Assembly (NCBI GenBank): GCA_016292255.1
Contig: JAEEZZ010000096.1
Coordinates: forward strand, 1 to 37,826
Source: Oscillospiraceae bacterium
Lineage (GTDB): Bacteria > Bacillota > Clostridia > Oscillospirales > Oscillospiraceae
Direction: 5' to 3'
DNA: 37,826 bases
Shown here: in pieces, positions 12,527 through 28,077 of the stretch
Position numbering within the stretch: the stretch's first letter is position 1
Layout of the letters: the number at the start of each line of letters is the position of its first letter
The notes under the pieces: generated by a model
Databases searched by the model: none
What the model was told of the DNA's origin: nothing
The model's input: the letters and a program-made list of their open reading frames with translations, nothing else
Position numbers and translations under genes: made by a program

Positions 12527-12580
12527 TCTCCAAAAGCGCCTCGAAAATGGAGTTTTTCCTCCACTTTGGCCTCAAAGCGG

Positions 12581-12627
12581 TTTGGGTCAGCGTTTGGGTC
12601 AAGCGCCTGACCCAGATTAGACCCAAA
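12581..12627. repeat. Integrase arm-type repeats, left end (TTTGGGTCA)
   Basis: Two TTTGGGTCA copies start at 12581 and 12593 (12 bp apart); TGACCCA at 12608 and GACCCAAA at 12620 are the reverse complement, also 12 bp apart. The right end has the same motif in the opposite orientation at 27887-27907. The 12-bp phasing suggests a protein binding array, most simply the integrase N-terminal domain. Confidence 0.65.
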
Positions 12628-12741
12628 CGTGGAAAGAAATGGAACGCGCCGGAGACCGTCAAAGACGATTTCCGGCGGGTCCATTCTCTGTCATTGCCAC
12701 GGGCGGCGCCGCCGCCCGTGGCAATCCGTTTCTTTCCTTCG

Positions 12742-13926
12742 TCACGTATTCTGCGCGGGATTATTCTGTTCCGGGGCGATCCCCGTGCTGACCAGGCTCC
12801 CCATGATGGCCGCTGCCTGGTGCTGGGCAGCCGTGGTGGTGTGGGTGTAGGTAGCCAGGGTGAAGCCAGCGTTGCTGTGACCCAGCATGGCGGAGACGGT
12901 CTTCACGTCCACGCCGTTCTGTAAGGCCAGCGTTGCGAAGGTGTGCCGCAGATCGTGGAAACGGATATGCTCCAGCCCGGCCTCCTTCAAAATCTTCTTG
13001 TGGAGATTCACCACTGAATCTGGATGGTATATTTCCCCGGTCACCGGCGAAGGGAAGATGCAGTCGCTGTCCGGAAATGCAATTTTTTGCTTTCTGAGAA
13101 GGTCAAGCGTCTCCTGGGACAGTGCGATTTTTCGGATCGAATTTGCCGTCTTGGGCGGGATTGCCGTCAGCTTTCCGTCCGTCACGTAGGCCTGCTTGCT
13201 GACGGAGATCGTCTGTTCCTTCCAGTCTACGTCCGACCAGAGGAGAGCAACCAGCTCGCTCTTTCGCATGCCTGTGGTCAGTTCCAGGAAGAACATTGGA
13301 AGCAGTCCTCTTGCTTCAGCCGCTTTCAGATACGCCTGCACCTGCTCCGGCTCCAGCGTTTTCATTTCCTTCTTCACCAGCTTCGGCGGCTTGCAGTCGT
13401 CCACCGGATTGTATTGCAGCAGTTTCTCTCGGACTGCTGCCTGGAGGCAGGTATGAAGCATCGTGTGGATGCCGCGAATGTAGGATGGGCTGAGGCCGGG
13501 ATTCTTCTCCTTCTGCGCCTCTCGAAGGCGTCCGCTTGTGCGGAGCTGATTGTAGAATTTCTGGATTTCGATGGCTCGGAGCTTGCTGAGCTTGATCTTC
13601 CCCAGCTTCGGGATGATGTGTTTGTCGATGAACATCTGGTAGTACCGGGCGGTGCTGGGCCGGAGATTGGGCTTGCAGTAGACATCATACCACAGCGTTA
13701 CCCATTGGCCGAGGGTGTAGCGATCCGCCCGGATCATGTCCACTCGCCCGCTTTTCTCAATGGCCTCTTTTAGCTTCTCCCGCACCTCTGCCTGAGTTCT
13801 GCCGAGGACGTTCTTGAGAATCGCCTTCCCGGTATCGGGATCGTATCCGGCAGTGAACCGGCCTTCCCAGCGTCCGTCCTTCCGCTTGCGGATGTTACCC
13901 TCGCCGTTGGCTCGTTTCTTTGCCAT
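12742..13926 (-). CDS. Tyrosine-type site-specific integrase
   Basis: A 394-residue phage/ICE-type integrase. Residues 1-60 are an AP2-like arm-binding domain (KKRANGEGNIRKRKDGRWEG start, typical of Tn916-type integrases), about 65-170 the SAM-like core-binding domain, and 185-375 the catalytic domain. The catalytic residues are visible: Arg221 (TGMRKSEL), Lys259, His324 and Arg327 (HDLRHTFA), His350 (LGHSN) and the nucleophile Tyr360 (ATYTHTT). The frame reaches a GTG at 13935, but that codon touches AGGAG; the ATG at 13926 has the site eight bases upstream. The gene points toward attL and the tRNA. No separate excisionase gene is obvious next to it. Confidence 0.95.
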   Translation of the reverse strand: MAKKRANGEGNIRKRKDGRWEGRFTAGYDPDTGKAILKNVLGRTQAEVREKLKEAIEKSGRVDMIRADRYTLGQWVTLWYDVYCKPNLRPSTARYYQMFIDKHIIPKLGKIKLSKLRAIEIQKFYNQLRTSGRLREAQKEKNPGLSPSYIRGIHTMLHTCLQAAVREKLLQYNPVDDCKPPKLVKKEMKTLEPEQVQAYLKAAEARGLLPMFFLELTTGMRKSELVALLWSDVDWKEQTISVSKQAYVTDGKLTAIPPKTANSIRKIALSQETLDLLRKQKIAFPDSDCIFPSPVTGEIYHPDSVVNLHKKILKEAGLEHIRFHDLRHTFATLALQNGVDVKTVSAMLGHSNAGFTLATYTHTTTAAQHQAAAIMGSLVSTGIAPEQNNPAQNT

Positions 13927-14402
13927 GCGTTTCACCTCCTGCCTTGTTAACCAAGGATTATATCACTTTTTCAAAAAATATCCAGATCAAAGAGCGAAAG
14001 ACACAGAATGTTATCAATTGGCCTTGGCCTCAATCCCTTGTCTTTGTCTACTGCGTCTCAGATTTTGACCTGCTGAATGGCACAATAATGATTATGAAAA
14101 ACCTGTACACGCGCCTCTCTGCTGCTGCAACGAATGCGGATGGGTTACGACCTTACCCCGGCAAAACAAACCGCACACAGCGGCAGGATTCTCAAAAAGA
14201 GGGGGTTTTAGGGGGGTATTAACAGGAGGTCGACCCAGGCTATTACGATAGCATTACAGTCGTTTTGCAGTTTTTTGTGGAAGTGCCACCGCTGTTTTTT
14301 CACTTTTTGTTATGTCCATTCCTTAGCCCATATGTATAATTGCTATGGTACCATACGGACATTTTCGTGTGAGGGCGATTCCGTACGTAACAGAAATAAG
14401 AC
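13927..14402. other. Gene-free stretch upstream of the integrase
   Basis: No convincing gene on either strand. It holds one copy of an island-specific repeat (14040-14070, see 27785-27815) and G-rich runs at 14200-14218. A possible second TATAAT stands near 14335. An excisionase would be expected about here in many elements, but no frame with a ribosome binding site was found. Confidence 0.5.
14040..14070 (+). repeat. Island repeat R, copy 1
   Basis: 31 bp that match 27785-27815 at 28 positions; core CTACTGCGTC then CAGATTTTGACC. Weaker copies occur at 15061-15090 and 16168-16198. Confidence 0.6.
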
Positions 14403-14431
14403 TTGATAAAGCTTTTGGTTACCCGTATAAT
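14403..14431 (+). promoter_or_regulatory. Promoter of the membrane-anchored gene at 14463
   Basis: TTGATA (14403-14408), 17-bp spacer, TATAAT (14426-14431), 31 bp upstream of the start codon. Confidence 0.75.
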
Positions 14432-14462
14432 GAGCAGGTAGAATAACGCTGGAGGAATGAAA

Positions 14463-15026
14463 ATGAAAAAACGCATTACATCAATTCTGAAGAAGTTTGG
14501 CGTAATCGTGGTGATCCTTGTTGTTGCAATTACAATCCTTGAACTGCTGGGCTTTCGTTTCATGTCCAAAAACGTGTTGATGTATGATTCGGAAGAAAGT
14601 CCTGTGATTCATACTTCGGATTGGGACTTTTACTATTTTACTTTTTCATTTGAAGAAGACGGCGAAGAGTGTGGGAAGTATATTGCAGGATTCCAGCCTG
14701 TAAAGCGGTATGGCTTAATGTACAAAAGACTGGATGAGTTCGAACCGAAATACGCTGTTTATACTGCAGACGGTAATGAATACCTTGGCGCTCTGTATTG
14801 TTTTGAAGGAAGAGAAACCCAGTATTATTTCTTCCGACTTCTTGCGACAGGCGGATCCTTGCCCCCGCTGTTTGTTGAAAACTGGGTTAAAGCAAGTGCG
14901 GTCACAATCAACGGCCAGAAGTATGAACTGCAGGAACACTCTTTCTTTTCAACGAATGTGAATTTTTCGTCCTTTTTCTTTGCGAACTGTGAACTTGTAC
15001 TTCGCCCCTTCGAGGCTGAGGAATAA
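14463..15026 (+). CDS. Membrane-anchored protein of unknown function
   Basis: A 187-residue protein with one N-terminal membrane anchor (basic start, hydrophobic residues about 13-30) and a soluble domain outside the cell or in the periplasm-like space, rich in aromatic residues and beta-strand patterns (DWDFYYFTFSF, YYFFRL). I recognise no family. GGAGG at 14451-14455 is seven bases upstream of the ATG at 14463; the ATG at 14457 would touch it. It is AT-rich like the rest of the island, has its own good promoter and is followed by a repeat R copy, so it is likely a single-gene cargo unit. Confidence 0.75.
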   Translation: MKKRITSILKKFGVIVVILVVAITILELLGFRFMSKNVLMYDSEESPVIHTSDWDFYYFTFSFEEDGEECGKYIAGFQPVKRYGLMYKRLDEFEPKYAVYTADGNEYLGALYCFEGRETQYYFFRLLATGGSLPPLFVENWVKASAVTINGQKYELQEHSFFSTNVNFSSFFFANCELVLRPFEAEE

Positions 15027-15060
15027 TTACCAAGAACATGACTTTGGCTGAATCTGTAGG

Positions 15061-15090
15061 TCTTGTCTTCTGCGTCACATTTTTTGATCG
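15061..15090 (+). repeat. Island repeat R, copy 2 (degenerate)
   Basis: Shares TCTTGTCTTCTGCGTC and TTTTTTGA with the repeat at 14040-14070. It follows the gene ending at 15026. Confidence 0.4.
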
Positions 15091-15190
15091 ATTGGTATGG
15101 CCAACAATCGAAATTGCCGAGCAGGCAAGACGATGCTATGATACATTGTGGTATCCGTATTTGATATATTGATGATGGAGACTTGAATAA

Positions 15191-15400
15191 TTGAGAAAGA
15201 ACAAACAGATTTCATTGGAAATCGTAATCATTTATGCTGTGTTTGCGTTTGTGTGGACAATTCTCACAATCTTAAGCATTATTAAAGAATCGCGAATTGA
15301 CCTCCTCATAATCATGAAAATTTTAGCGACTGTAGGATATACAATATCATTCATAATTTCGCTGTATAGATATTGCGCTGAGAAGGATAATGAAGAATAG
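15191..15400 (+). CDS. Small two-helix membrane protein
   Basis: A 69-residue protein with two hydrophobic helices (about residues 10-28 and 40-60) and charged ends (MRKNKQ and EKDNEE). The start is TTG at 15191 with GGAG ten bases upstream; no ATG is available early in the frame. AT-rich. I recognise no family; small membrane proteins next to defence genes can be toxins or immunity factors, but nothing here shows that. Confidence 0.55.
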   Translation: MRKNKQISLEIVIIYAVFAFVWTILTILSIIKESRIDLLIIMKILATVGYTISFIISLYRYCAEKDNEE

Positions 15401-15416
15401 TTTAGCGGTTCATCCG

Positions 15417-15679
15417 CAGGGAAGTGGGTTCGGGCTGCTGCCCGGTTTGCCTGAGGCGGCCATTGGACAGCCACAGGCTCTGCTTGCCTCAGCGTTCCAA
15501 CGCAGGAATCGTGAATATTGGGTGACGCCCTAAAAAGCCTTGGAAAACTCTGAGGAAAATGGAACTACGACTCCTATTTTCGCATGGATCAGCTTTTACG
15601 ACTCCACTTTTTGGAGAAGAGCAAAACCCGCAAAAACCCTTACAACGTCGGCGTTGCCGGCGATTGTGAATCGGAGTGA
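15417..15679 (+). pseudogene. Remnants of one or two genes
   Basis: Frame 15417-15533 reads QGSGFGLLPGLPEAAIG... and ends YWVTP-stop; frame 15563-15679 reads NYDSYFRMDQLLRLHFLEKS... and ends GDCESE-stop. Both have protein-like composition but no start codon with a ribosome binding site, and the first is preceded by the stop of another gene. They look like truncated ends of older cargo genes. I cannot name the families. Confidence 0.4.
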
Positions 15680-15940
15680 GGGGCGGTCACGACCCCACTC
15701 CTTTCTCCTGCTTGGATATCGACCCGAGCAAATATGGCGTCACAGAGGAGAAAAACGCTGCTGTTTCCAGCGCCAGGGCCGGTCAAAATGGCGCCTCGCT
15801 CTCGCACCTCGCAGGGGCATAGATTCCGGAATCTGAGGGGGGGTATCCCTACCTTACCCTTTCAAAACCGTGTCAAAAAACCATTGCTGTGACTGGACTT
15901 TTTTCGTTCTAAATGCGTAGGATGGCACTGCTCTGTATTG

Positions 15941-15977
15941 GCATCGTTTCGCCGTCAGAATCACAGCGAAACGATGC
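15941..15977. repeat. 12-bp perfect inverted repeat
   Basis: GCATCGTTTCGC (15941-15952) and GCGAAACGATGC (15966-15977), 13-base loop. An outer GCTCTG/CAGAGC pair extends it, with a six-base bulge on the left. No T run follows, so it is not a typical terminator. Confidence 0.7.
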
Positions 15978-16167
15978 AGAGCCTAAGGAATGGCAAACGC
16001 TCCGCCATAGCCCTGCAACCGGTTTGCCTGAGTATGGGGGGCATCCTTACTCTACCCTATCATGGAAAAGCGCACACAGGCCGACAACGCGCCTCACGTG
16101 GTCGGACACAGGTTTTCTATGTTCTGCAACGATTTGCGGAGCCCAGGGCCAGGGCTCCGCTTTCGTA

Positions 16168-16198
16168 CTCTTTGATTACTGCAAACCAATTTTTGACG
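16168..16198 (+). repeat. Island repeat R, copy 4 (degenerate)
   Basis: CTCTTTGATTACTGC then TTTTTGACGC; the middle differs from the other copies. It abuts the stop codon of the minus-strand gene at 16200. Confidence 0.45.
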
Positions 16199-16199
16199 C

Positions 16200-16490
16200 T
16201 CAGGCATCGTCGATGGACGGGATCTCCGCGGATCGCATCACGTCGATCATCAGCCTGGCTGCCAGGGTGAAGCCAAGCTCGAAGGCTTCCTCTTCCGTTA
16301 CGCTGACAACGTCGTTGAAGGCGTCGATGGTCTTTTTGTACTGCTCGTTCTGTTCTTCGGACAGCATTGCTTTCAGCTTGTCCTGGTTCTTGGCGTACAG
16401 GCACAGCGTCCGCTCCAAAGGCGAGCCCGACTTCACGGGCCGGTCCTTATAGGTCAGCCCGCAGGTCCAGATCTCTTCCAGCATGCTCAT
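16200..16490 (-). CDS. DUF6809-like small protein
   Basis: A 96-residue all-alpha protein. The layout MSMLEEIWTCGLTYKDRPVK, then a helix with LLEKL-type hydrophobics (LERTLCLYAKNQDKLKAML), then ELGFTLAARLMIDVM fits the DUF6809 family of clostridial mobile elements, whose function is unknown. AGGAGG lies seven bases upstream of the ATG at 16490. The start overlaps the stop of the upstream gene (ATGA), so the two are translationally coupled. Confidence 0.75.
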   Translation of the reverse strand: MSMLEEIWTCGLTYKDRPVKSGSPLERTLCLYAKNQDKLKAMLSEEQNEQYKKTIDAFNDVVSVTEEEAFELGFTLAARLMIDVMRSAEIPSIDDA

Positions 16491-16807
16491 TTTCTCACCT
16501 CCTCCCGTCCTACGAGAGGAGCGCGTGGCGCACACTGTGTGCCGCTACAGGATTCCTCTCTATCCCTGGTGATACAACAAGACGACGCTGCATCGGACAA
16601 TTCCGATACCTCGTCGCCTTGTTCTGCCATTTGCAATGCCGTGAGAAAGGTCTGCTTTACGGTCAGCAGGTCGATCCACGTTCTTTCGTCGCATCCCTCC
16701 GGGACGCCGTTGGTGATTACCTCCTGCATGACGGCGTTCAGGATTCCGCCGTACTTCTCGCCCAGGCCCTCGCCCAGATACAGGTCGCTGATGGGTATTC
16801 TTGCCAT
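16487..16807 (-). CDS. Small protein of unknown function, coupled to the DUF6809-like gene
   Basis: A 106-residue protein. It begins MARIPISDLYLGEGLGEKYG, followed by a helical region (ILNAVMQEVITNG, WIDLLTVKQTFLTALQMAEQG). AGGAGG lies eight bases upstream of the ATG at 16807. The last 25 or so residues are encoded by a GTAG-hairpin repeat (16527-16548) and look foreign to the rest (CSGTQCAPRAPL), which suggests the native C terminus was replaced. The family is not known to me; the pairing with a DUF6809 gene is the main context. Confidence 0.65.
   Translation of the reverse strand: MARIPISDLYLGEGLGEKYGGILNAVMQEVITNGVPEGCDERTWIDLLTVKQTFLTALQMAEQGDEVSELSDAASSCCITRDREESCSGTQCAPRAPLVGREEVRK
16527..16548 (-). 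repeat. REP-like GTAG-hairpin element E, inside a coding region
   Basis: Minus strand: GTAG (plus CTAC at 16545-16548), then GGCACAC and GTGTGC with a one-base bulge. It lies within the 3' end of the gene at 16487-16807 and keeps its frame open. Confidence 0.55.
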
Positions 16808-16937
16808 GTGTCGTGCCTCCTCTTTCTGTAGGTTTCCGACACAACACATACCACAACTTTTGCCGAAAGTCCAGACCAAAGATGTTTTTTTTTGATTAAC
16901 TTTCAGATTTGGCAGAAAAACATAATAACGAAAAATC

Positions 16938-16965
16938 TTGCTTTTTCAACAAAAACAGATATAAT
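16938..16965 (+). promoter_or_regulatory. Promoter of the defence operon
   Basis: TTGCTT (16938-16943), 16-bp spacer, TATAAT (16960-16965), 43 bp upstream of the abiH-like start. The region is very AT-rich and also separates the divergent small-gene pair. Confidence 0.65.
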
Positions 16966-17008
16966 TATCCTGTATAGGTATAAGCATTTGAACCGTGTGA
17001 GGTGCCTT

Positions 17009-18346
17009 ATGGATGTTTTTATGATCGGGAACGGGTTTGACCTGCACTATTGTCTGCCTACTACATATACCTGCTTTTTGCGCACAGTCGAGAATATCTG
17101 CAAGCGGCTGGCATCGGGAGAGCAATTGACCTCTGTTGCTCAGATTATCAGCGATCCCGAACTCCATAGCATCGATAGAGCAATGAAGCGTTGCTTCGAT
17201 ACCTACGGATCATCCTATGATGCAGAGATAGATCCTTCTCAAGTTGATAAGATATTCCGTCATGCAGAACACAATATGTGGTTCTCCTATTTACTCAATT
17301 CCTTTGCGCCTGAAAAAGGATGGATTGATTTTGAACAGGAGATTGGTAAAGTAATAGCCGTCATTACTTCCTCGATGGAGAACTATGAAAGGGTTGGAGA
17401 TCCCAGTAAAATAAATCTTATAGTTGATGCAGTTGACACAAATACAAACCGTGTGCTTCAGTACTTTAAATGTTTTTATGACGAGAATAATGTACATCAG
17501 GGTTTTTACAGAGACGTTGCTGGCAACACAATATCAGAAGGCTACGCTTATCCAGTTCTGAGAGAATATATTGCAGAAGAACCGTATGGTTCAAAAAACT
17601 ATACTATTAGTTTATCGAATATTTCGGAATCATTATTTACTTCGCTTCAGGAGCTTGTGAATATGCTCGCAGCATACCTATCATTTTTTGTAGATAGACC
17701 TGTTGCACGGCTGATAAAGAAAAACCAATTTAAAAAAGACGAGATGCTTTGTAATTGGAAATGGCGGGATTCAACAGTTGTGTCATTCAACTACACACAT
17801 ACATTGGAGCAACTGTACTATGCTTCCCAGAATCCGATTAAAGACGTGTTTTATATCCACGGCGAACTTAGCAATCCAAAGCGCCAGAACTCCGGTAATC
17901 TCGTCCTGGGTATAAATGCAGACAAGTCTGACAATCTTGATCAGGTAGATGTCACATTCCTACCCTTCAAGAAATACTACCAGCGGGCTTTTCACAGAAC
18001 TGATTTGCCATACATTAGCTTTCTTTCGAAGTATACTCCCGATGAACTGCATGAGAACTTTTACAACCTATATGTGATAGGGCACTCCCTTGATATTACA
18101 GATCAGGAAGTGATTCGTGACTGCTTCTCACGTGCCATAACAATCCACATTTTTTACTATAGCCCAAGCGATCTTTCAACGAAGATAAGCAACCTTGTAA
18201 AGATTTACAAAAAGAATGGCTTCGATGAGCTACGCACTAAGAAAAACCTGCAGTTTCATCCAATTGATACTTTGAAAGAGGCTGAACCGTTTCCCTCAAA
18301 ACCTTTTCCTATGCCGCCTCCGCCAATTGTATGGAATATCAAATAA
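17009..18346 (+). CDS. AbiH family abortive infection protein
   Basis: A 445-residue protein of the AbiH family (PF14253), known from lactococcal phage abortive infection. The hallmark N terminus is present (MDVFMIGNGFDLHYCLPTTY), as are the conserved VVSFNYTHTLEQLY with a following YIHGEL (about residues 250-290) and the C-terminal YVIGHSLDITDQEV (about 352-365). The mechanism of AbiH is not established. I chose the ATG at 17009, with GAGG six bases upstream; the frame is open further upstream without a suitable site. The gene is AT-rich, and only 33 bp separate it from mod, so it probably leads the operon. Confidence 0.92.
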   Translation: MDVFMIGNGFDLHYCLPTTYTCFLRTVENICKRLASGEQLTSVAQIISDPELHSIDRAMKRCFDTYGSSYDAEIDPSQVDKIFRHAEHNMWFSYLLNSFAPEKGWIDFEQEIGKVIAVITSSMENYERVGDPSKINLIVDAVDTNTNRVLQYFKCFYDENNVHQGFYRDVAGNTISEGYAYPVLREYIAEEPYGSKNYTISLSNISESLFTSLQELVNMLAAYLSFFVDRPVARLIKKNQFKKDEMLCNWKWRDSTVVSFNYTHTLEQLYYASQNPIKDVFYIHGELSNPKRQNSGNLVLGINADKSDNLDQVDVTFLPFKKYYQRAFHRTDLPYISFLSKYTPDELHENFYNLYVIGHSLDITDQEVIRDCFSRAITIHIFYYSPSDLSTKISNLVKIYKKNGFDELRTKKNLQFHPIDTLKEAEPFPSKPFPMPPPPIVWNIK

Positions 18347-18379
18347 GCACTCCAAAAGAAAACAACAAGGAGATTACGC

Positions 18380-20143
18380 ATGTCAAACAAATTGGAACTG
18401 ACCTGGATCGGGAAGGAGACGCCCATCCGCATTGAGCCGCGGATTCTGATTGAGAACGCGGCGCTGTCTAACTGCACAAATGATCCCGATACAGAAAACA
18501 TGCTGATCCACGGAGACAACCTCCTTGCGCTGAAGGCCTTGGAAAGCAAATATGCCGGACAGATCAAGTGTATCTATATCGATCCGCCGTATAATACGGG
18601 CGCTGCCTTCGAATACTACGATGATAATTTGGAGCATTCGATTTGGGTCAACTTAATGCGAGCACGTTTAATTGCGCTACAGAAACTTTTAGCTCCAGAA
18701 GGGACAATTTGGATCCAAATCGACGATGAAGAACAGGCGTATTTAAAAGTGCTTTGTGATGAAATATTTGGTCGTAATAACTTTATAAATATGGTTTCGG
18801 TAAATATGAAAAATATTGCCGGTGCTTCTGGAGGCGGTGAAGACAAACGATTAAAAAAGAACTGTGAGTTTGTTCTTATATATGCGAAAGACTATGAGTC
18901 TTTTTCTCCGTTCAAAAATGCGTATGATTATGTTGAAATGTATGATTACGTTGTTGCATATAGAGAGAACGGAAAAAACTGGCACTACACATCGGTGCTA
19001 TTATCTGCGGGAATAAAGGAATATATTTGCTCTACCGTAGATGGAGACGGGAATGAAATTAAGCTTTTTCGTCGTAATGGTGCAATCGTAAAATCCATAC
19101 GCCAGATAATGAAAGAAGAGGGTTTATCCGAAAAAGAAGTTTACTATAAATATGGAAACCGCATTTTTGAAGCAAAAGATGCACAATCATCAATACGCAC
19201 ACGCGTACATGATGCGAAAGTTGAAAACAGTATATCTGATGATATAATTTCAATTGAATATGTCCCCAAAACAGGTAAGAATAGAGGAATACTATACGAG
19301 CAATTTTATAAAGGTGATAGTTGCCGACTGTTTGCCTGGTTGGGAGATATAAGCGAAATGATAGATGGGGTTCTATATAAACGAGACCGAAAAGGAACAT
19401 ATTGGGATTATACATCCAATATCAATAATTTGACAAAAGAAGGTGGCGTTGTATTTCCAAAAGGGAAAAAACCGGAAGCCTTAGTTAGTAGAATTCTTGA
19501 TATGACCACAAATCCGAATGATCTCATTCTTGATTCCTTCCTTGGCTCTGGCACCACTGCCGCCGTAGCCCATAAAATGGGGCGGCGTTATATTGGTATT
19601 GAAATGGGCGACCATGCTTATACCCATTGCAAGCTTCGGTTAGATAAGGTAATTGCCGGGGATGACCCTGGTGGGATCACAAAGGCGGTCAACTGGCTGG
19701 GTGGCGGTGGATATCGGTTCTACGAGCTTGCTCCGTCTCTGATCAACGAAGATCCCTTTGGAGAAGCGATAATTAACCCCGCCTATGACGCGGATATGCT
19801 GGCGGCGGCGATGGCCCTGCACGAAGGCTTTACCTACCAACCGGACAGCACTATGTTCTGGAAGCAGTCTGTGGGCAGCGAAAACAGCTATCTGTTTGTC
19901 ACCACCCGGCACCTGAACAGCCCCTTCCTGGATTCCATCCGGGACAGCATGGAAGAAGGCGAGTATCTGATCATTGCCTGCCGTTCCTTTGAAGCCGGGC
20001 TGGATCGGGTGTACAAGAATATCACGATTAAGAAAATCCCTCAAATGCTGCTGGATCGCTGCGAGTTTGGCAGGACAGATTACAATCTGAATATCGTCCA
20101 CCCGCCCGTGTATGAGGATGAGGAGGAAGAAACGGATGAGTGA
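18380..20143 (+). CDS. mod: Type III restriction-modification DNA methyltransferase (Mod)
   Basis: A 587-residue beta-class adenine methyltransferase. The catalytic motif IV DPPYNTG is at residues 68-74 and the AdoMet-binding motif I (DSFLGSGTT) at about 383-391, an order typical of type III Mod. Between them lies the target recognition region. Mod methylates one strand of an asymmetric site and gives the complex its specificity. AAGGAG lies seven bases upstream of the ATG. Base use is mosaic: roughly 18600-19510 is AT-rich, while both ends are GC-richer, which suggests exchange of the recognition region. The 3' end overlaps res. Confidence 0.93.
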   Translation: MSNKLELTWIGKETPIRIEPRILIENAALSNCTNDPDTENMLIHGDNLLALKALESKYAGQIKCIYIDPPYNTGAAFEYYDDNLEHSIWVNLMRARLIALQKLLAPEGTIWIQIDDEEQAYLKVLCDEIFGRNNFINMVSVNMKNIAGASGGGEDKRLKKNCEFVLIYAKDYESFSPFKNAYDYVEMYDYVVAYRENGKNWHYTSVLLSAGIKEYICSTVDGDGNEIKLFRRNGAIVKSIRQIMKEEGLSEKEVYYKYGNRIFEAKDAQSSIRTRVHDAKVENSISDDIISIEYVPKTGKNRGILYEQFYKGDSCRLFAWLGDISEMIDGVLYKRDRKGTYWDYTSNINNLTKEGGVVFPKGKKPEALVSRILDMTTNPNDLILDSFLGSGTTAAVAHKMGRRYIGIEMGDHAYTHCKLRLDKVIAGDDPGGITKAVNWLGGGGYRFYELAPSLINEDPFGEAIINPAYDADMLAAAMALHEGFTYQPDSTMFWKQSVGSENSYLFVTTRHLNSPFLDSIRDSMEEGEYLIIACRSFEAGLDRVYKNITIKKIPQMLLDRCEFGRTDYNLNIVHPPVYEDEEEETDE

Positions 20144-22787
20144 CCGCTTTCCCCAATATACCACCGACTATATCAGCGGCGTCATGTCCCTGCGCAAGCC
20201 GCAGAAAAAGTCGCTGGAAATCTTAGCGGATATTCTGAACAGTATCACCCTGCGCAAAGGGATGAACCTGCGCGGGGCGCTTGGCGCGGTCCACGCCATG
20301 TATCCGACCTGTTCTGATTTTGAGCGGGAGTTTCTGTCGCTGACCTTCGCTCTGGCAACCGGCGTCGGCAAAACCCGTCTCATGGGCGCCTTCATTGCCT
20401 ATCTCTACACGCAGCACGACATCAGAAACTATTTTGTCGTTGCCCCGAACACGACGATTTATGAGAAGCTGAAAAAGGACCTTTCCGATCAAAACGGTAA
20501 GAAATACGTATTCAAGGGCCTGGGCTGCTTTGCCGCCGCTCCACAGATCATTACGGACGACGACTACCGAACCAAGAGCATTTCCCTGTTTGAATCGGAT
20601 ATCCGCATTTTTGTCTATAATATCGACAAGTTCAACAAGGAAAGCGCCAATATGAAGAAGCTCAACGAGATCATCGGAGACTCCTTCTATCGGTATCTTT
20701 CCAATCTCTCCGATTTGGTCCTGATTATGGACGAGTCCCACCATTACCGGGCGGAAAAAGGGGCGGAAGCGTTGAACGAGCTGCGCCCGCTCCTGGGCCT
20801 GGAGCTGACCGCGACGCCCTACGTCAGGCAGGGTACAAAACAGGTGAATTTCAAAAACGTCGTTTACGAGTACCCGCTTTCCGCCGCAATCGCAGACGGC
20901 TATACCCGGACGCCCTTCGCCGTGACCCGATCCGATATCAATTTCTTCAACTTCGGAGACGAACAGCTTGACAAGCTGATGCTGCAGGATGGAATTTCCT
21001 GTCATGAAAACGCAAAGCACGCTTTGGAGGTATATGCCGCCAACCATGGGAAAGAGCGCGTTAAGCCCTTTATGTTGGTGGTCTGCAAGGACACGAACCA
21101 TGCAAACTGGGTGGAACAGTATGTACGTTCCGACGCGTTCCGAAACGGAGCCTACAGTGGAAAAACCATCGTTGTCCACTCAAAAAAGACTGGAGCGGAA
21201 ACCGAAGCGAACATGCGTCTGCTTCTCGATGTGGAGCAGGCGGACAATCCCGTGGAAATCGTGATCCACGTGAATATGCTGAAGGAAGGCTGGGACGTCA
21301 ACAATCTTTATACCATCGTCCCGCTGCGAACTGCTACATCAAAGATTCTGCGGGAGCAAATGGTGGGGCGTGGCCTAAGGCTTCCCTACGGAGAGCGCAC
21401 CGGCGACGAGACCGTTGACTCTGTAAGACTGACCGCCCATGATAAGTTCGGAGAGATATTGGAAGAGGCCCAGCGCGGCGATTCTATTTTCAAAGCCGGA
21501 AATATCATCAAAGCAGAGGACCTCAAGCCCAGCGAAATCACATATCCCACCGTGGCTATGGAACTGCCATCTCAGGAAACGCATGAGGAGGCTTATGCGC
21601 AGACAGGGCTCCAGCAGTCTCCTGAGAACGACGCCGTATTTGCCGCAGCGCAGAATAAGATCCGGCAAGCCATTGCGCAAATATACCGGGATGCTTCTCC
21701 GCATACCGATCCAGCACAATCGATTCGGCAAGCTGCCGAGAACGTCTCTGCCCAGCTTGCGGAAGATCAGGACTTAGGTGAGACCTTCCGCAACAATGAA
21801 AACCCCTTCTCTGACTGGATCGTTCATGAGACAGAGAAGACACACGCAGCAACAAAGGCAAAATTCATTCCAATCCCCCGTATCAGAATCACTGATGCGG
21901 GTGTGGAAGAATACAATTTCACGGATTTTGATTTGGATCTCAGCGATTTTGACCACGTTCCGATCAGCAACGAGCTGCTGATCCAAAATTTGACAGATCC
22001 GGCAGACCGGCAGCGGATTCATGGCGACACCATCGACTTCGAGGCATACAAGCCTGGAAAGGTTATTTTGACAGAGCTCCGAAAGAAGCCGGAAATCGAC
22101 TACGAAAAATGCCCCGCTCTGATTCAAAAGCTGATAACCCAACTGCTTGCGCACTACGAAACGCGGCACGGCGAGAATGGAATGCGGAACATTGTAATGA
22201 TGTACCGCAGGGATATTGCCAACAAGCTGTACAATCAAATGATGAAGCACTTCTATTGCACCAACGGCATGCTTCAGGAAGAGGTCATTGGGACAAGCGA
22301 TCACAATTTGGCCCAGGCATATAGCTGGGACGAAAAGGTGGACCTGTTCGGGACCTTCCATGGCAACATTCGAAACGTACTCTTTACCGGGATAAAGAAA
22401 GGCGTCTTTGCGGAGGCCAAGTTCGACAGCAAGGAAGGCGAGCTGACACTTGCCCACGTTCTGGAAAGGGACCCGGACGTGCTCAAATGGCTCAGACCGC
22501 ATCCCCGGGAATTTGACATCACCTACAACCACGGGCATAATTATGAGCCTGATTTTGTCGTGGAAACTGAGGACATCATCTATCTTGTCGAGGTCAAGGG
22601 CGAAGACAAACTGAAGGACCCAGATGTCTTGGCAAAGAAGACCCGGGCGATCCAATACTGTGCCGTCGCTTCCCGCTGGGGGAACGCAAATGGCTATAAA
22701 GAGTGGAGATACTTGTTTATTCCTTCTAAGCAGGTGCTTCCAAACTCTTCCTTCAAACAATTAGCAGTGCGATTCAAGGAACTGTAG
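20136..22787 (+). CDS. res: Type III restriction enzyme helicase-nuclease subunit (Res)
   Basis: An 883-residue superfamily 2 translocase and nuclease. Walker A ATGVGKT is at residues 74-80, the DExH box DESHH near 198, and LTATP near 223. The second RecA domain holds REQMVGRGLRLP near 409. The C-terminal PD-(D/E)XK nuclease shows EPDFVVE near 804 and LVEVKG near 816, the expected D...ExK pattern. With Mod it cuts DNA after ATP-driven communication between two unmethylated sites. The ATG at 20136 overlaps the mod stop codon and has AGGAGG nine bases upstream, so the two are coupled. All key motifs are present, so it looks intact. Confidence 0.94.
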   Translation: MSDRFPQYTTDYISGVMSLRKPQKKSLEILADILNSITLRKGMNLRGALGAVHAMYPTCSDFEREFLSLTFALATGVGKTRLMGAFIAYLYTQHDIRNYFVVAPNTTIYEKLKKDLSDQNGKKYVFKGLGCFAAAPQIITDDDYRTKSISLFESDIRIFVYNIDKFNKESANMKKLNEIIGDSFYRYLSNLSDLVLIMDESHHYRAEKGAEALNELRPLLGLELTATPYVRQGTKQVNFKNVVYEYPLSAAIADGYTRTPFAVTRSDINFFNFGDEQLDKLMLQDGISCHENAKHALEVYAANHGKERVKPFMLVVCKDTNHANWVEQYVRSDAFRNGAYSGKTIVVHSKKTGAETEANMRLLLDVEQADNPVEIVIHVNMLKEGWDVNNLYTIVPLRTATSKILREQMVGRGLRLPYGERTGDETVDSVRLTAHDKFGEILEEAQRGDSIFKAGNIIKAEDLKPSEITYPTVAMELPSQETHEEAYAQTGLQQSPENDAVFAAAQNKIRQAIAQIYRDASPHTDPAQSIRQAAENVSAQLAEDQDLGETFRNNENPFSDWIVHETEKTHAATKAKFIPIPRIRITDAGVEEYNFTDFDLDLSDFDHVPISNELLIQNLTDPADRQRIHGDTIDFEAYKPGKVILTELRKKPEIDYEKCPALIQKLITQLLAHYETRHGENGMRNIVMMYRRDIANKLYNQMMKHFYCTNGMLQEEVIGTSDHNLAQAYSWDEKVDLFGTFHGNIRNVLFTGIKKGVFAEAKFDSKEGELTLAHVLERDPDVLKWLRPHPREFDITYNHGHNYEPDFVVETEDIIYLVEVKGEDKLKDPDVLAKKTRAIQYCAVASRWGNANGYKEWRYLFIPSKQVLPNSSFKQLAVRFKEL

Positions 22788-22804
22788 AACAGTGAGGTGT
22801 TGAC

Positions 22805-23812
22805 ATGGAGGCCAATAGACGTGCTAATGCTGTCATGTTTGGATTTGACTTTCAAGTGAATGCTGCTATCGTGCTAATGCTTGAAAATATAAAAGACATC
22901 CAATCTCTTCGGATAGAGAGTGAGAATGAAGACATTGATATTGAATTGTGTAATGGTAACCACATTTTAGCACAGGCGAAATCGGTTGAAAAGAGCAGTT
23001 CGGATTTTAGCCATGTTCGGGAAAAACTCAAAAATGCGCTGAAATCGCTATCTGAAGGTTGCGCAAAAGTAAGTGCAGAAAAGCTGATTTTGATTACGAA
23101 TTCTCCTAATCCACTAAATGAAGAAGCATCCCGCAGTATTTTCTATGGAGCTGCCCACCGTAATTTCGATACTTTGCCAGAATCGTCACAAAAAATCATA
23201 ACTGGTTTTCTATCGGAAATTGAGCGTCCATTAAATCCCGAACAGTTTTCCATTCAGGTCCTTCCCTTTGAAACGGATAATGAGGCGGAACGTTACAAGG
23301 TTGTTTTGCAGGTCATTAATGATTTTATTGGTGATTTAAAGTTGTCTAATAGCGGTCTCGGAAAGCGATTACACCGCATATGGTTTGAGGAGACTTTTAG
23401 AAACGGAAGTAAGAAAAATACAGAGATCAAACTTTCCAAAAAAAGTTTGATTTGGCCTATAATAGTGATTGTCACCGACGTTGAGAATACAGACCAAGAC
23501 TTTGTTGACAGATTTGATACTGTCCAATACGATGAGGTAGTACACAGGTACAAGGAAACTATTGACTCATGCTGTGAAAAAATGGAGTTTTTTACAAAGA
23601 TTCTCTTTGATTTCAATGCATATAACAACACCGGAAAACCAAAAGAAAAATCGCTGAATTTTGTAGAGGATTGCTGGAGAAATTACGCATCTGAATTTGA
23701 AGGAGACGGCATTGATTGTGATACCGTAGAAGCCCTTACCAAAGTTGTTGTGTACAATGTTATTCGAAGAAGAATTGAAATAAATAAGATCAAGCAGGGG
23801 GTATCCCTATGA
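22805..23812 (+). CDS. Cap4/DUF4297-like nuclease candidate of a two-gene defence system
   Basis: A 335-residue soluble protein. Residues 12-60 match the restriction-endonuclease-like core seen in Cap4/DUF4297 dsDNA nucleases: GFDFQVNAA helix, then ESENEDIDIEL (acidic residues 38-47), then a strand ending LAQAKSV with Gln57 and Lys59 as the QxK motif. Residues 60-335 are helical, with no known domain that I recognise. It starts 17 bp after res, and its stop overlaps the start of the SMC-like gene by four bases. In Lamassu systems a Cap4-like LmuA is paired with an SMC-like LmuB, and in ABC-3C systems an ABC ATPase is paired with a middle component and effector; this pair resembles both. Family assignment of the nuclease fold is by pattern only. 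Confidence 0.6.
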   Translation: MEANRRANAVMFGFDFQVNAAIVLMLENIKDIQSLRIESENEDIDIELCNGNHILAQAKSVEKSSSDFSHVREKLKNALKSLSEGCAKVSAEKLILITNSPNPLNEEASRSIFYGAAHRNFDTLPESSQKIITGFLSEIERPLNPEQFSIQVLPFETDNEAERYKVVLQVINDFIGDLKLSNSGLGKRLHRIWFEETFRNGSKKNTEIKLSKKSLIWPIIVIVTDVENTDQDFVDRFDTVQYDEVVHRYKETIDSCCEKMEFFTKILFDFNAYNNTGKPKEKSLNFVEDCWRNYASEFEGDGIDCDTVEALTKVVVYNVIRRRIEINKIKQGVSL

Positions 23813-25260
23813 TCATAAAATCTATCCACATTAAAGAAGGCTTATACAGTCGTTTTATTGAGTTTTCTGACAATGCCAATTTAATACACAGCAAACAAAA
23901 CAGCAAAGGAAAAACGACGCTCCTCAGATTTTTGCTATATTCGCTTGGTTATAATATTCCAAACACTAAAAAAATTAAGTTTGAACGCTGTGAGGTCGAA
24001 ACTGTTATTTTTTCAGAAAAGTATGGTGACGCTACACTTGCAAGATTCAATAGTAACAGTATCATTCTATCAAGTGATAGTGTCCGCCAGACTTATGTCC
24101 TTCCAGAGCAGCTGCAAGAGCTTCACGGTTTATTATTCGGGACAGATAATGCCGATGTGTTAGATAATCTTCTCGGTGCTTTCTATATAGATCAAGAGAA
24201 GGGGTGGACGCTGCTTAATAGAGGTGTTGCCATAGGCAGTATTCATTTCAAAATTGAGGATTTAATTCGCGGTCTGTCAGGAATAGATTGCTCAAAATTA
24301 ATTCGACAAGAAGAAAAGCTGTTAAGAGAGCTAAATAAATATAGGCAGATGTTCAGTGTCGCAAAATACCAAGAGACCATTGAAGTCGACAGCGGTTCCC
24401 TTGCAGTAGAGCACTATGAGGATAGGCTTGATGCAGATTTAGAACAGTTAAAAATCCAGCAGAACAGGCTAAAGAAAGAATTGAAAAGACTTGACCGGAC
24501 AATAAAGGATAACAAGCAGTTTGCAACATTTATAGCTGAGATGAAACTGCTTGTCAAGGGACCAGATGGAACAGCAATTCCTGTAACAGCAGATAATATT
24601 GTTGGCTTTGATGATAATTTCGAGTACCTTATAACAAAGCACAAGCTAATCTCCTCCGAGCTTGCCTTGGTTCTATCTGCAATTGCTTCTCATGAGGATC
24701 AGATGAGAGCAGAAAACGAGCAAATGTCTTTTTGGGAGTCTGAAACAATGGTACAAGCCTTTGACAGAAGAATTGCAGCGCTTCAAATAAATGCGGTCCC
24801 AATTGAGAAAGAAATAAGAAAAATAGAAAGCGAATTAAAAGCGGTGCGCCAAGCTATCACAGAAAACACCAAAGCCAACAATCCTGTTGTTACTTCTCTT
24901 TATCGAAATATGGTTAAATATGCGAGTGAATTAGGCGTTGGAGACGAAGAGACAATTGCAGCGAGGTATTTATTTACTTCTAATCTTAGAGAGCTTTCCG
25001 GGGCAGTTTTACACAAAACAGTATTTGCATTTCGTTTGGCGTATATCATTGAGATAGAGCGAGCTATTGGCATTAAATTACCGCTAATACTTGATTCTCC
25101 AAGCGGCAAAGAAGTTGACCAAGAAAACATCAAGTTGATGATGAACATTCTCAAAAGGGATTTCTCTGATCATCAAATTATCATCGCATCAATTAATATG
25201 TACGATTTTGATCCGCTGAATATTATTGAGATAATAAACCGTCTGATTGAGTTCGAATAA
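23809..25260 (+). CDS. SMC/Rad50-like ABC ATPase of the two-gene defence system
   Basis: A 483-residue ATPase with head-coil-head order. The N-terminal Walker A-like loop is SKQNSKGKTTLL (residues 28-39), with Asn-Ser in place of the usual Asn-Gly. A coiled coil rich in Glu, Lys and Leu spans about 165-370, with a break near 235-290. The C-terminal Walker B is LPLILDSPSGKEVD near 424; the residue after the conserved Asp is Ser, so the usual catalytic Glu is not where expected. This LDSP type is seen in ABC-three-component and related conflict ATPases. It is short compared with LmuB or Rad50. It is coupled to the nuclease-like gene by an ATGA overlap. Likely role: sensing DNA ends or structures and controlling the nuclease. 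Confidence 0.75.
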   Translation: MIIKSIHIKEGLYSRFIEFSDNANLIHSKQNSKGKTTLLRFLLYSLGYNIPNTKKIKFERCEVETVIFSEKYGDATLARFNSNSIILSSDSVRQTYVLPEQLQELHGLLFGTDNADVLDNLLGAFYIDQEKGWTLLNRGVAIGSIHFKIEDLIRGLSGIDCSKLIRQEEKLLRELNKYRQMFSVAKYQETIEVDSGSLAVEHYEDRLDADLEQLKIQQNRLKKELKRLDRTIKDNKQFATFIAEMKLLVKGPDGTAIPVTADNIVGFDDNFEYLITKHKLISSELALVLSAIASHEDQMRAENEQMSFWESETMVQAFDRRIAALQINAVPIEKEIRKIESELKAVRQAITENTKANNPVVTSLYRNMVKYASELGVGDEETIAARYLFTSNLRELSGAVLHKTVFAFRLAYIIEIERAIGIKLPLILDSPSGKEVDQENIKLMMNILKRDFSDHQIIIASINMYDFDPLNIIEIINRLIEFE

Positions 25261-25280
25261 TATAGAAATATATAAATGAT

Positions 25281-25328
25281 TTTTTTGCCAATTCTTTGAA
25301 GCCATAATAGCTGCGGGTTGGCAAAAAA
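25281..25328. repeat. 11-bp inverted repeat between the SMC-like and OLD-like genes
   Basis: TTTTTTGCCAA (25281-25291) and TTGGCAAAAAA (25318-25328), perfect, 26-base loop. It could end transcription of the long operon or form part of a leader for the next gene. Confidence 0.7.
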
Positions 25329-25329
25329 C

Positions 25330-25378
25330 TGCACAGCTTCTCGGTTTATATATTTGAATGATGCGAATATGCTGTGCA
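25330..25378. repeat. 8-bp inverted repeat upstream of the OLD-like gene
   Basis: TGCACAGC (25330-25337) and GCTGTGCA (25371-25378), perfect, 33-base AT-rich loop. It follows the previous inverted repeat with one base between. Confidence 0.6.
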
Positions 25379-25440
25379 ACACTTTAATCTGCGTTTTATA
25401 TTTTCTGTATTGCGTCGTAGAATTTGCAGGAGAATTCTAA

Positions 25441-27021
25441 ATGTACAAACTAAAATCAATAGTTTTTCAGAATCACCCTATTCTTGGTAATCTTTCACTG
25501 GATTTTTGCGATCAAGATGGAAAGCCCGTTGATACAGTTATTTTGGCGGGTGAAAACGGCGCTGGAAAAAGCACGTTGTTAGATGCACTATATACATTCA
25601 TCAGCGGAAAAGCTGATTTCAAAGTCATTGCAGAATATGCGTTGGATACCGCGGAAATATCATTTAATGCTGCAACATCGCACAATCTTTATAATCAACT
25701 GCTAAATTTGAATGCAGGAAAAAACCAGGACGCTTGGCACAACAATACGGACGGTCATCTAGATATACGTCCTATGGCTGGAATTTATTCTGATATTGAT
25801 ATCAATTTCAATGCAAAAGAAGTATCCTCTATTACCTCTATGGGGTTAGACTCTGTAGTAGAATCACAACGATCTAACAGCAATCTACCGACCCAAATTA
25901 ATCAACTAATTATTGACATTCAAGCTTTAGATGATGCTGATATTGCAAATGCTGTTCGAAAAAACCCAGAAGGTCGATATTTGAAAGGTACTATAGATGA
26001 ACGAATGTCGCGTTTTACAAATGCATTTAGTCGTATGTTTGATAATTTATCCTATAGCAGAATAATAACTGAGAAAAGACGGAAAACAATTCTGTTCCAA
26101 AAAAACGGCATTGAAATTCCAATTGAAGCATTAAGTTCGGGAGAAAAGCAAGTTGTCTACAGAGGTTGCTTTTTGTTAAAAGATGTTAATGCATTAAATG
26201 GGGCGTTTGTATTTATTGATGAACCTGAAATCAGTCTTCACCCTACATGGCAGATGAGAATCATGGATTATTACAAGAGTATTTTTACAAATGCAAAAGG
26301 GGTTCAGACTTCGCAACTATTTGTCGCAACCCACTCTCCATTTATTATTCATAATGAAACACGGAAAAACGACAAAGTTATTGTCCTTTCCCGAGATATC
26401 AATGGAACTATTATTGTAAAAGATAAGCCCGAGTATTATAAATGCACTTCAATAGAGCTAATAAAGGATGCGTTTTCTATTAGCCATTTCCAGTTTGATA
26501 AGCCAACAGTTTTTTTAGAGGGTAGAACAGACGAAGAATATTTTAAAAAAGCTTGTGAAGTCTTTGGCTTTGACATTCCCTTTCAGTTTAAATGGATCGG
26601 ATTCTTGGATGATAATAATACTGAGCATTTTACCGGGAGTTCGTCTTTGAATCAAGCTTATAATTTTCTTGCTGGCCAAGAGATAAAATGTAAAACTGTT
26701 TTTCTGTTTGATTGTGATACCAACAAAAATGAGTTTCAAACGAGAAACCTATATGTCCGAAGAATGCCATATTTTGAAAACTCAAAAAAGATGAAAAAAG
26801 GCATCGAAAATGCCTTGGTGTTAGATGATATAGACATATCCTCTTTCTACAAATCGAAGGAAAAAGAAGGAGATTATGGTGAACGCAAAATTATTACTGA
26901 GTTTTTGAAAATGGATTGTTGCAGATTTATTTGTTCTCTTAATCACGCGACTTTGGAAACAGTCTTTATTCATCTAAAAGAAACCATTATGAGCTTGACT
27001 ACGCTTTTTTCTGAGGAGTAA
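25441..27021 (+). CDS. OLD-family ATP-dependent nuclease (ABC ATPase plus TOPRIM)
   Basis: A 526-residue protein. The ABC-type ATPase shows Walker A GENGAGKST (37-45), signature LSSGEKQ near 231, Walker B FVFIDEPEISLHP near 256 and the switch ATHSP near 295. A TOPRIM-like region follows, with FLEGRTDEEYF near 358 (the conserved Glu) and FLFDCDTN near 421 (the DxD). This is the arrangement of OLD-family nucleases, known from phage P2 Old, and of related defence ATPases. No UvrD-like helicase gene follows, so it is not a Gabija-type pair. AGGAG lies eight bases upstream. An AriA/PARIS-like or retron-type ATPase is a less likely alternative. It probably has its own promoter in the structured 180-bp gap upstream. 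Confidence 0.82.
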   Translation: MYKLKSIVFQNHPILGNLSLDFCDQDGKPVDTVILAGENGAGKSTLLDALYTFISGKADFKVIAEYALDTAEISFNAATSHNLYNQLLNLNAGKNQDAWHNNTDGHLDIRPMAGIYSDIDINFNAKEVSSITSMGLDSVVESQRSNSNLPTQINQLIIDIQALDDADIANAVRKNPEGRYLKGTIDERMSRFTNAFSRMFDNLSYSRIITEKRRKTILFQKNGIEIPIEALSSGEKQVVYRGCFLLKDVNALNGAFVFIDEPEISLHPTWQMRIMDYYKSIFTNAKGVQTSQLFVATHSPFIIHNETRKNDKVIVLSRDINGTIIVKDKPEYYKCTSIELIKDAFSISHFQFDKPTVFLEGRTDEEYFKKACEVFGFDIPFQFKWIGFLDDNNTEHFTGSSSLNQAYNFLAGQEIKCKTVFLFDCDTNKNEFQTRNLYVRRMPYFENSKKMKKGIENALVLDDIDISSFYKSKEKEGDYGERKIITEFLKMDCCRFICSLNHATLETVFIHLKETIMSLTTLFSEE

Positions 27022-27067
27022 CTCCCCCCTAACTCACAGAGACCTTGAATGTATGTGGCATATGGTA

Positions 27068-27096
27068 TTGACAAAAAACAAAATGTTGTGTATAAT
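27068..27096 (+). promoter_or_regulatory. Consensus promoter of hicAB
   Basis: TTGACA (27068-27073), 17-bp spacer, TATAAT (27091-27096): a perfect sigma-70-type promoter. Confidence 0.92.
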
Positions 27097-27102
27097 AGAA
27101 CC

Positions 27103-27121
27103 GTAACTGAAATTTAGTTAC
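27103..27121. promoter_or_regulatory. Probable HicB operator
   Basis: A 19-bp palindrome with one mismatched pair, GTAACT at 27103 and AGTTAC at 27116 around an AT core. It lies just after the -10 element and before the hicA ribosome binding site, as expected for autorepression by an RHH-type antitoxin. Confidence 0.72.
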
Positions 27122-27136
27122 ATAAAGGAGGTTGCC

Positions 27137-27394
27137 ATGCCGAAGAAAGACCAACTTTGGAAGAAGCTCTTTGCCGCCAGGATCCCGAGGAATTTCACGA
27201 CTGCCGATCTGGACGCGCTGATGAGCAAATGCGACTGTGAAAAATTCTACGGCGGGCGCGGCTCAGCCATTGCCTATGTCCACAAGAAGACCGGGCGGGT
27301 GTTGATGTTTGACGGGCCTCATCCGGGCAATGAGCTGTACATCTATCAGGTGAAGAAGGTACGGGAGTTTCTGCAGTCTCTCGATGAAGAATAG
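27137..27394 (+). CDS. hicA: HicA-family toxin (mRNA interferase)
   Basis: An 85-residue protein with the HicA double-stranded-RNA-binding-like fold: the start KLFAARIPRNFTTADLDALM, the central GRGSAIAYVHKKTGRVLMF, and the C-terminal GPHPGNELYIYQVKKVREFL, which holds the PHPGNE motif of the family. The usual G-S-H motif in the centre reads GSA here, so the catalytic histidine may be the one in YVHKK or in PHPG. AAGGAGG is five bases upstream of the ATG. HicA toxins cleave mRNA in the absence of HicB. The toxin gene comes first, as is common for hicAB. Confidence 0.86.
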   Translation: MPKKDQLWKKLFAARIPRNFTTADLDALMSKCDCEKFYGGRGSAIAYVHKKTGRVLMFDGPHPGNELYIYQVKKVREFLQSLDEE

Positions 27395-27404
27395 GAGGGA
27401 TCTT

Positions 27405-27767
27405 ATGTCTGATCTGTTGGAATACAAAGGCTATCACGGCACAGTCGAGTACTCTGCTGAGGACGGCATCCTCTGCGGCTCTGTGTTTGGCGTCAACGAT
27501 TCTTTGAACTACCACGGCATGGGCCTGGAAGAGTTGGAGGCATCTTTCCATAGCTGCGTTGACAATTATCTTTCGCTCTGTGCGCAGATCGGCAAGCAGC
27601 CTGAAAAAGAGTTCAAGGGCTGCTTCAACGTCCGTATTGCGCCGGAGCTGCACCGTGCTGCCGCTCTTGCTGCCGCGAAGGAAGGCTGTTCTTTGAATCA
27701 ATGGATCTCCGAAGCGGTCAGAGAACGCACTCGAAAAGTTGCATCCTATCAACAGCCGCGGGCGTAG
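27405..27767 (+). CDS. hicB: HicB-family antitoxin
   Basis: A 120-residue antitoxin. Residues 1-65 form the partial RNase H-like HicB fold that binds the toxin (EYKGYHGTVEYSAEDG, then GMGLEELEASFHSCVDNYL). Residues about 74-110 are a ribbon-helix-helix DNA-binding domain (GCFNVRIAPELHRAAALAA, LNQWISEAVRERT). The ATG at 27405 has AGGAGG six bases upstream and lies ten bases after hicA. The RHH domain is expected to bind the palindrome at 27103-27121. Confidence 0.9.
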   Translation: MSDLLEYKGYHGTVEYSAEDGILCGSVFGVNDSLNYHGMGLEELEASFHSCVDNYLSLCAQIGKQPEKEFKGCFNVRIAPELHRAAALAAAKEGCSLNQWISEAVRERTRKVASYQQPRA

Positions 27768-27784
27768 TGTTCCGCTGGCTGGTA

Positions 27785-27815
27785 GTCTTTGATTACTGCG
27801 TCGCAGATTTTGACC
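27785..27815 (+). repeat. Island repeat R, copy 3
   Basis: 31 bp with 28 matches to 14040-14070; it contains the short palindrome CTGCGTCGCAG. It lies 18 bp after hicB. Confidence 0.6.
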
Positions 27816-27886
27816 GGCATGATTTCGCTGAAAACTGCTTGACCCGGATCGCGTCGTGAATATGGGTTTTGCGGTACGGTGAGACT

Positions 27887-27907
27887 TGACCCAAACCGTG
27901 ACCCAAA
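27887..27907. repeat. Integrase arm-type repeats, right end (TGACCCAAA)
   Basis: TGACCCAAA at 27887-27895 and 27899-27907, 12 bp apart, the reverse complement of the pair at 12581-12601. Confidence 0.65.
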
Positions 27908-28031
27908 CGCGGAAACGAGCCGATGGAATCAGCGGAGCGGAGACCAGATCCGGCTCGCAAAACCGGCTAAAACACCCGGCAGAAAGGGCCGGATAGGGCC
28001 ATAGAGCAGGGTGCGGAAGCTTGGACGAACG

Positions 28032-28077
28032 TTCGTAATCAGCAGGTCGCCGGTTCAAGTCCGGCCAGTAGCTCCAC
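28032..28077. repeat. attR: 46-bp copy of the tRNA-Thr 3' part
   Basis: Identical to 12445-12490. Only the anticodon loop, T arm, acceptor 3' strand and CCA are present, so this copy is not a functional tRNA. Confidence 0.93.

Follow-up and report, generated by a model that had tools for sequence, protein, structure and literature searches.

A compact two-gene nuclease-ATPase locus in an Oscillospiraceae genome, best read as a hook-less relative of type I Lamassu

Two overlapping genes on contig JAEEZZ010000096.1 of an Oscillospiraceae bacterium (assembly GCA_016292255.1) raise the question of which defence system they form and how it may act. They lie in a stretch of 37,826 nucleotides, the window, which was analysed as a whole. 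The first (22805–23812, + strand) encodes a nuclease of 335 amino acids (aa) and is PDC-M46A or LmuA-like; the second (23809–25260, + strand) encodes an ATPase of 483 aa, PDC-M46B or a compact LmuB-like ABC ATPase. Both start with ATG, and the four bases ATGA are common to the two open reading frames (ORFs). An earlier note, made from the sequence alone, had reported this four-base overlap and proposed a two-gene candidate combining a Cap4/DUF4297-type nuclease with a Rad50/SMC-like ATPase near Lamassu. The overlap was confirmed, and the proposal was supported by profiles, structures and gene order. The most fitting reading is that the pair forms a compact branch of the two-gene (type I) Lamassu that lacks the hook.

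In PADLOC, the nuclease matched PDC-M46A (461 bits, residues 1–335 of 335) and the ATPase matched PDC-M46B (645 bits, residues 1–481 of 483). The next other names were LmuA (9.3e-7) for the nuclease and LmuB (4.7e-24) for the ATPase. By these profile matches the pair belongs to the candidate system PDC-M46 and is thus already catalogued there, without a mechanism. The earlier note had suggested a possible distinct subtype. That did not hold for an unnamed system, since the PADLOC search gave a clean match to a named one, with the candidate name PDC-M46; the real differences, the absence of a zinc hook and the shorter arms, are those from two-gene Lamassu. PMC11811056 credits the unpublished candidate PDC-M46 to Payne et al. 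(2021) and describes a single instance, in the Bacillus cereus group, of the same genes being called as both PDC-M46 and Lamassu. Its passages on PDC-M46 give no mechanism.

On sequence profiles and the predicted model, the ATPase is homologous to LmuB. Its profile had a sole match in a sequence search of the PDB, 9ux7 LmuB (E 4.3e-4). The AF2 model (pLDDT 87.3, pTM 0.69) had as its best Foldseek match 9ux7_A, the LmuB of the LmuAB-DNA complex (E 2.8e-15). Comparison by hhalign of the ATPase family with 31 LmuB, comprising three from two-gene loci and 28 homologues taken irrespective of their gene context, gave a probability of 96.9 (E 1.7e-10, 424 columns). No Pfam match of the ATPase rose above cut-off.

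The nucleotide-binding motifs of the ATPase were well conserved. The counts refer to folded alignments of 88 (ATPase) and 86 (nuclease) rows, chosen from 1900 and 826 homologues, and to lists of the best 120 of each. Walker A NSKGKTT (residues 31–37; 23899–23919, + strand) had N31, G34 and K35 in 88/88 rows, and Walker B LDSPSGKE (residues 428–435; 25090–25113, + strand), with the catalytic Glu replaced by Ser, had D429, S430, P431 and E435 in all 88. The stretch DQEKGWT (residues 128–134; 24190–24210, + strand), presumably the Q-loop, was invariant. The loci were fetched by the exact patterns DQEKGWT or LDSPSGKE[VI], so the invariance of these two stretches was partly built in. An ABC signature-like LSGA (residues 396–399; 24994–25005, + strand; G398 in 88/88) was identified by eye, and Q456 and S461 were likewise invariant. 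By word search, DSPxxxE was kept in 119 of the best 120 ATPase homologues, all at least 59% identical to the query. One of these proteins, P0212 (580 aa, from a single contig), consists of a WYL-domain regulator fused to roughly the C-terminal 80% of the ATPase; it was set aside because it may be chimeric, though it remains among the 120 counted.

The nuclease comprised a Cap4-type PD-(D/E)XK domain (about residues 1–223) and a helical C-terminal domain (about residues 224–335). Alignment conservation placed the active-site stretch E38..E42-D43..Q57-A-K59 at 22916–22981 (+ strand), with E38, Q57 and K59 in 86/86 rows, D43 in 85/86 and E42 in 78/86; Q17 and N99 were also invariant. In the profile comparison this stretch was aligned with DYKCDIEI..YQIK of LmuA. 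The PD-(D/E)XK fold was supported by the predicted model and its matches to PDB structures. The model aligned with 9ux7_C, chain C of the LmuAB-DNA complex, over residues 15–325 (270 residues aligned), the C-terminal domain included, and the LmuA profile matched a plasmid member of the nuclease family with 2.2e-12 over 2–291. By fold, the nuclease shares the layout of LmuA, in which an N-terminal enzymatic domain is followed by one for docking. Weighing against the assignment to Lamassu, direct profile comparison of the nuclease family with three LmuA gave a probability of only 51.9, a weak sequence link. The Pfam scan of the window nuclease gave no match, and the DUF4297 match in NCBIfam (19 bits) was far below the 300-bit cut-off. 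The nuclease thus appears homologous to LmuA more weakly than the ATPase does to LmuB, the relationship being weak by sequence and good by predicted fold.

The motifs singled out in the earlier note, ESENEDIDIEL (residues 38–48) and QAK (57–59) in the nuclease and NSKGKTT with LDSP (428–431) lacking the usual Glu in the ATPase, were all present and conserved. The note had also regarded the missing Walker-B Glu and the lack of a third gene as atypical. Among the genomes of the same phylum, LmuB scored above 200 bits in 3 of 299, and the fourth match was the window's own ATPase. In the two-gene LmuAB loci of these three genomes, LmuA (349–357 aa) lay directly 5′ of LmuB (565 aa); one of them scored 424 bits for LmuA and 685 bits for LmuB in PADLOC. 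The three LmuB had DSPNNxE as Walker B and DQD at the place of the DQEKGWT stretch, and Walker B in 9ux7 LmuB was DSF...E. DSPxxxE was common to these three and to 117 of the 120 listed relatives. LmuB generally has Glu changed to Gln at the catalytic Walker-B position (PMC10586767); the window ATPase family had Ser, not Gln, in 88/88 rows, as did the two-gene LmuB examined and 9ux7. Type I Lamassu consists of two genes (PMC12409362). The two supposedly atypical traits therefore do not distinguish the pair, because they are common to the two-gene relatives examined; no third gene recurs beside the pair, and this is not unusual for type I.

These comparisons bear on another explanation, in which a DUF4297/Cap4 nuclease was independently recruited to a Rad50-like ATPase. 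Such a separate two-gene system would cut invading DNA directly through end processing, like Mre11-Rad50, and not by Lamassu-type release of the nuclease. Rad50 keeps the Walker-B Glu, however, and the Glu-less Walker B and the two-gene order are common to LmuAB. The ATPase profile matched only LmuB in the PDB, and the nuclease aligned through its C-terminal domain with a chain of the LmuAB complex. This origin was considered unlikely.

The two genes were also compared across 88 loci, 80 from genomes (the best 80 of 103 relatives) and 8 viral. The nuclease match was directly 5′ of the ATPase gene in 85/88. The remaining three lacked the nuclease: L032 (contig edge), L068 (partial ATPase near the locus start) and L080 (broken ATPase). 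The four-base overlap was found in 61 of the 83 loci with both genes whole, out of 90 (the 88, the window itself as L001, and L002), and the others ranged between −11 and +14, with start codons taken nearest to the profile start; near-duplicates were kept in this count (for example L002/L035, which score alike, and L048/L049/L057 in part). Split genes were seen in L010, L014 and L024 (nuclease in two frames) and in L036 (ATPase in two). Nuclease and ATPase distances were correlated (r 0.946, 67 pairs), in keeping with the two genes being inherited together. No third gene recurred when up to three ORFs per side (445 ORFs) were clustered over the 88 loci; the largest cluster, represented by a resolvase/recombinase, covered 13 loci. 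In L036:5767–8001, the frame of a type I specificity subunit runs without a stop into the nuclease gene; this was interpreted as a run-on or a fusion and was not counted as support for a fused effector.

The missing zinc hook and the shorter arms set the window pair apart from two-gene Lamassu. The ATPase is short, as the earlier note had pointed out, with about 80 residues less than the 562–565 aa of the LmuB compared. Lamassu commonly, though not by definition, has a zinc hook at the tip of the arm. The window ATPase family lacked it: an arm CxxC occurred in 0 of the best 120 listed proteins and in 0 of the 88 aligned rows. Nine of these 120 had CxxC at residue 69, in the head, and 25 of the 88 rows, the more diverse set, had one to three arm cysteines, none forming CxxC. 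At the place of the hook, residues 245–266 (24541–24606, + strand) formed a predicted beta-hairpin, with strands 248–250 and 256–258 in the AF2 model, and it stood opposite the hook in the hhalign alignment. This stretch averaged 2.23 bits, vs 1.75 and 1.59 for the coils on either side, and was among the best-conserved arm parts (best windows starting at 244–245 and 257–259). In comparison, a CPxC hook was present in the three two-gene LmuB of the same phylum, and CxxC in every one of the 120 homologues listed for one of them; the arm region of the 31 aligned LmuB rows held two or three cysteines. The LmuB compared represent one hooked subfamily, and the hook is found in "many (but not all)" LmuB homologues (PMC10586767), so its loss is a real difference with a precedent.

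In Lamassu, LmuB senses DNA ends or hairpins, probably with poor ATP hydrolysis, and frees the Cap4-type LmuA, which forms a tetramer and cuts DNA non-specifically, and the cell is killed or stalled (PMC10586767; PMC12409362; PMC12904381). The titles of PDB entries agree with this model: an LmuACB nuclease sequestration state, LmuACB on DNA, and an LmuA tetramer on DNA. We consider it quite probable that the window pair is a compact, zinc-hook-less type I relative acting in the same way. The Rad50/SMC-like ATPase would clamp ends or hairpins of foreign DNA and, by binding ATP while hydrolysing it slowly or not at all, might work as a one-way switch. In the resting state, the helical C-terminal domain of the nuclease may be docked on the ATPase; release and oligomerisation, as reported for LmuA, would then activate the Cap4-type nuclease, which would cut DNA and likely abort the spread of a phage or plasmid. 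The apex beta-hairpin could stand in for the zinc hook as an arm-to-arm contact or sensor. Each step is inferred by homology with Lamassu and supposes two proteins doing likewise.

The pair was patchily distributed: 2 of 98 relatives had it, as did 2 of the 299 genomes searched in the phylum, and both counts include the window's own genome. By record names, mostly of metagenome-assembled genomes, the hosts included Clostridia, Bacteroides, Fibrobacter, Akkermansia, spirochaetes, Gastranaerophilales and one alphaproteobacterium. An ATPase relative was found on eight plasmids, four of them below 10 kb, and both plasmids examined carried the pair (7.6-kb Lactiplantibacillus, L102; 9.0-kb Latilactobacillus, L103). 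One phage genome, Ruminococcus phage NatCom_2329 (L104), also carried it. A three-row LmuB alignment found no relative in a scan of viral contigs. Tentatively, and with somewhat less than even confidence, we propose a hook-free Lamassu branch in which a conserved tip beta-hairpin on a shortened coiled-coil replaces the hook. It would be the smallest self-contained Lamassu, a two-gene switch on plasmids below 10 kb and in a phage, which must therefore distinguish its own small circular carrier from its targets.

The same carriers, small plasmids, a phage and an integrase-bearing island, could suggest a nuclease-neutraliser pair resembling a toxin-antitoxin module and serving mainly to stabilise its own mobile element. 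Against this, the partner presumed to restrain the nuclease is no labile antitoxin: it has LmuB homology and the conserved nucleotide-binding motifs of an ATPase. A module of this kind was the least probable of the explanations weighed.

The Oscillospiraceae genome carries the pair in a 15.6-kb genomic island (12445–28077) located in a tRNA-Thr(CGT) gene. A 46-base exact direct repeat (12445–12490 and 28032–28077) marks the two ends of the island, and the left copy contains the 3′ part of the tRNA-Thr (12414–12489). A tyrosine integrase gene (12742–13935, minus strand) is found at the start of the island. The GC contents were 0.45 for the island, 0.38 for the gene pair and 0.59 for the flanks. 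An AbiH-family gene (16892–18346; PF14253, 113 bits) is followed by type III restriction-modification genes, Mod (18380–20143) and Res (20112–22787), the latter directly before the pair. Overlapping HicA-like and HicB genes (27137–27767) are near the end of the island; HicA scored 26.4 bits, with a cut-off of 27. A 34-base element occurs in four copies near both island ends (14040–14073, 15059–15092, 16168–16201 and 27785–27818), three of them sharing 65–88% identity with the fourth, taken as reference. Promoter-like sites were somewhat more frequent than expected (13 vs 7.5, sd 2.9), and none of the 13 was just upstream of the nuclease gene; terminator-like sites (2 vs 1.6 expected from shuffles) were not above chance.

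An AAA_21 ATPase gene with PtuA/AriA-like PADLOC matches (25441–27021) starts 180 bases downstream of the pair. It was not counted as part of the system in view of this distance and of the scarcity of relatives beside the pair: clear ones, on the opposite strand, were confined to L026 and L027, and L069 and L070 gave weak partial matches. By eye, its C-terminal part is TOPRIM-like (FLEGRTDEEYF...FLFDCD), possibly that of an OLD-type defence gene.

Upstream, only 17 bases separate the stop codon of Res from the start of the nuclease gene, as would be expected if the pair were an accessory module or back-up nuclease of the type III restriction-modification operon. Of the seven representatives of recurrent neighbour clusters, four were restriction or methylase genes and one was PDC-S02 (the remaining two were a resolvase and an integrase), and the specificity frame running into the nuclease gene in L036 points the same way. 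No cluster, however, reached more than 13 of the 88 loci, and that one had the resolvase/recombinase representative; a same-strand gene ended within 30 bases upstream in only 14/81 loci, and the 7.6-kb plasmid carries the pair without an annotated restriction gene. An accessory role was thus judged very improbable.

The main gain of reading the pair as a Lamassu relative lies in a likely mechanism for an already listed defence candidate, which turns an unexplained catalogue entry into a testable one. What merits further work is the loss of the hook, the hairpin predicted there instead, and the small carriers. A minimal Lamassu allows a direct look at what the zinc hook does: should it prove dispensable, the heads or the hairpin would have to account for dimerisation and sensing. 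The small plasmids that bear the pair offer a natural setting for asking how a Lamassu-like system avoids attacking its carrier.

Among the known systems, PDC-M46 was matched by both window proteins over their full lengths, and no difference was found; families absent from the VIA lists were not counted as excluded. CBASS Cap4 and HerA-DUF4297 were rejected, as only the nuclease domain is in common. For CBASS this was judged from Pfam and PADLOC scans, not from fold lists: the window nuclease had no SAVED match in Pfam, and no cyclase or SAVED match was found by Pfam in the pair or 16 further island and flank ORFs, or by PADLOC in the 8 scanned. In HerA-DUF4297 the partner is HerA, whereas that of the window nuclease is a coiled-coil ABC ATPase. 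Lamassu type II, DdmABC and ABC-3C resemble the pair in the folds of nuclease and ATPase (9hqx, 9hr5, 9uxh, 9nyg). They carry a middle component, LmuC, DdmB or MC (PMC10586767; PMC12409362), whereas no such gene recurred beside the pair family, and the two genes overlap or lie at most 14 bases apart in 83/83 scored loci. Type II and ABC-3C were ruled out by this composition, and the likeness to ABC-3C drawn in the earlier note did not extend to it. Compared with type I Lamassu, with 9ux7 assigned to that type from the two-protein title of its entry, the window ATPase is shorter (483 aa vs 562–565), has a predicted beta-hairpin apex instead of a zinc hook, and pairwise identity with the window proteins is very low. 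The pair shares with type I the two genes with the nuclease first, the Cap4-type nuclease, the Rad50-like ATPase with a degenerate Walker B (DS....E), and end-to-end profile and fold matches.
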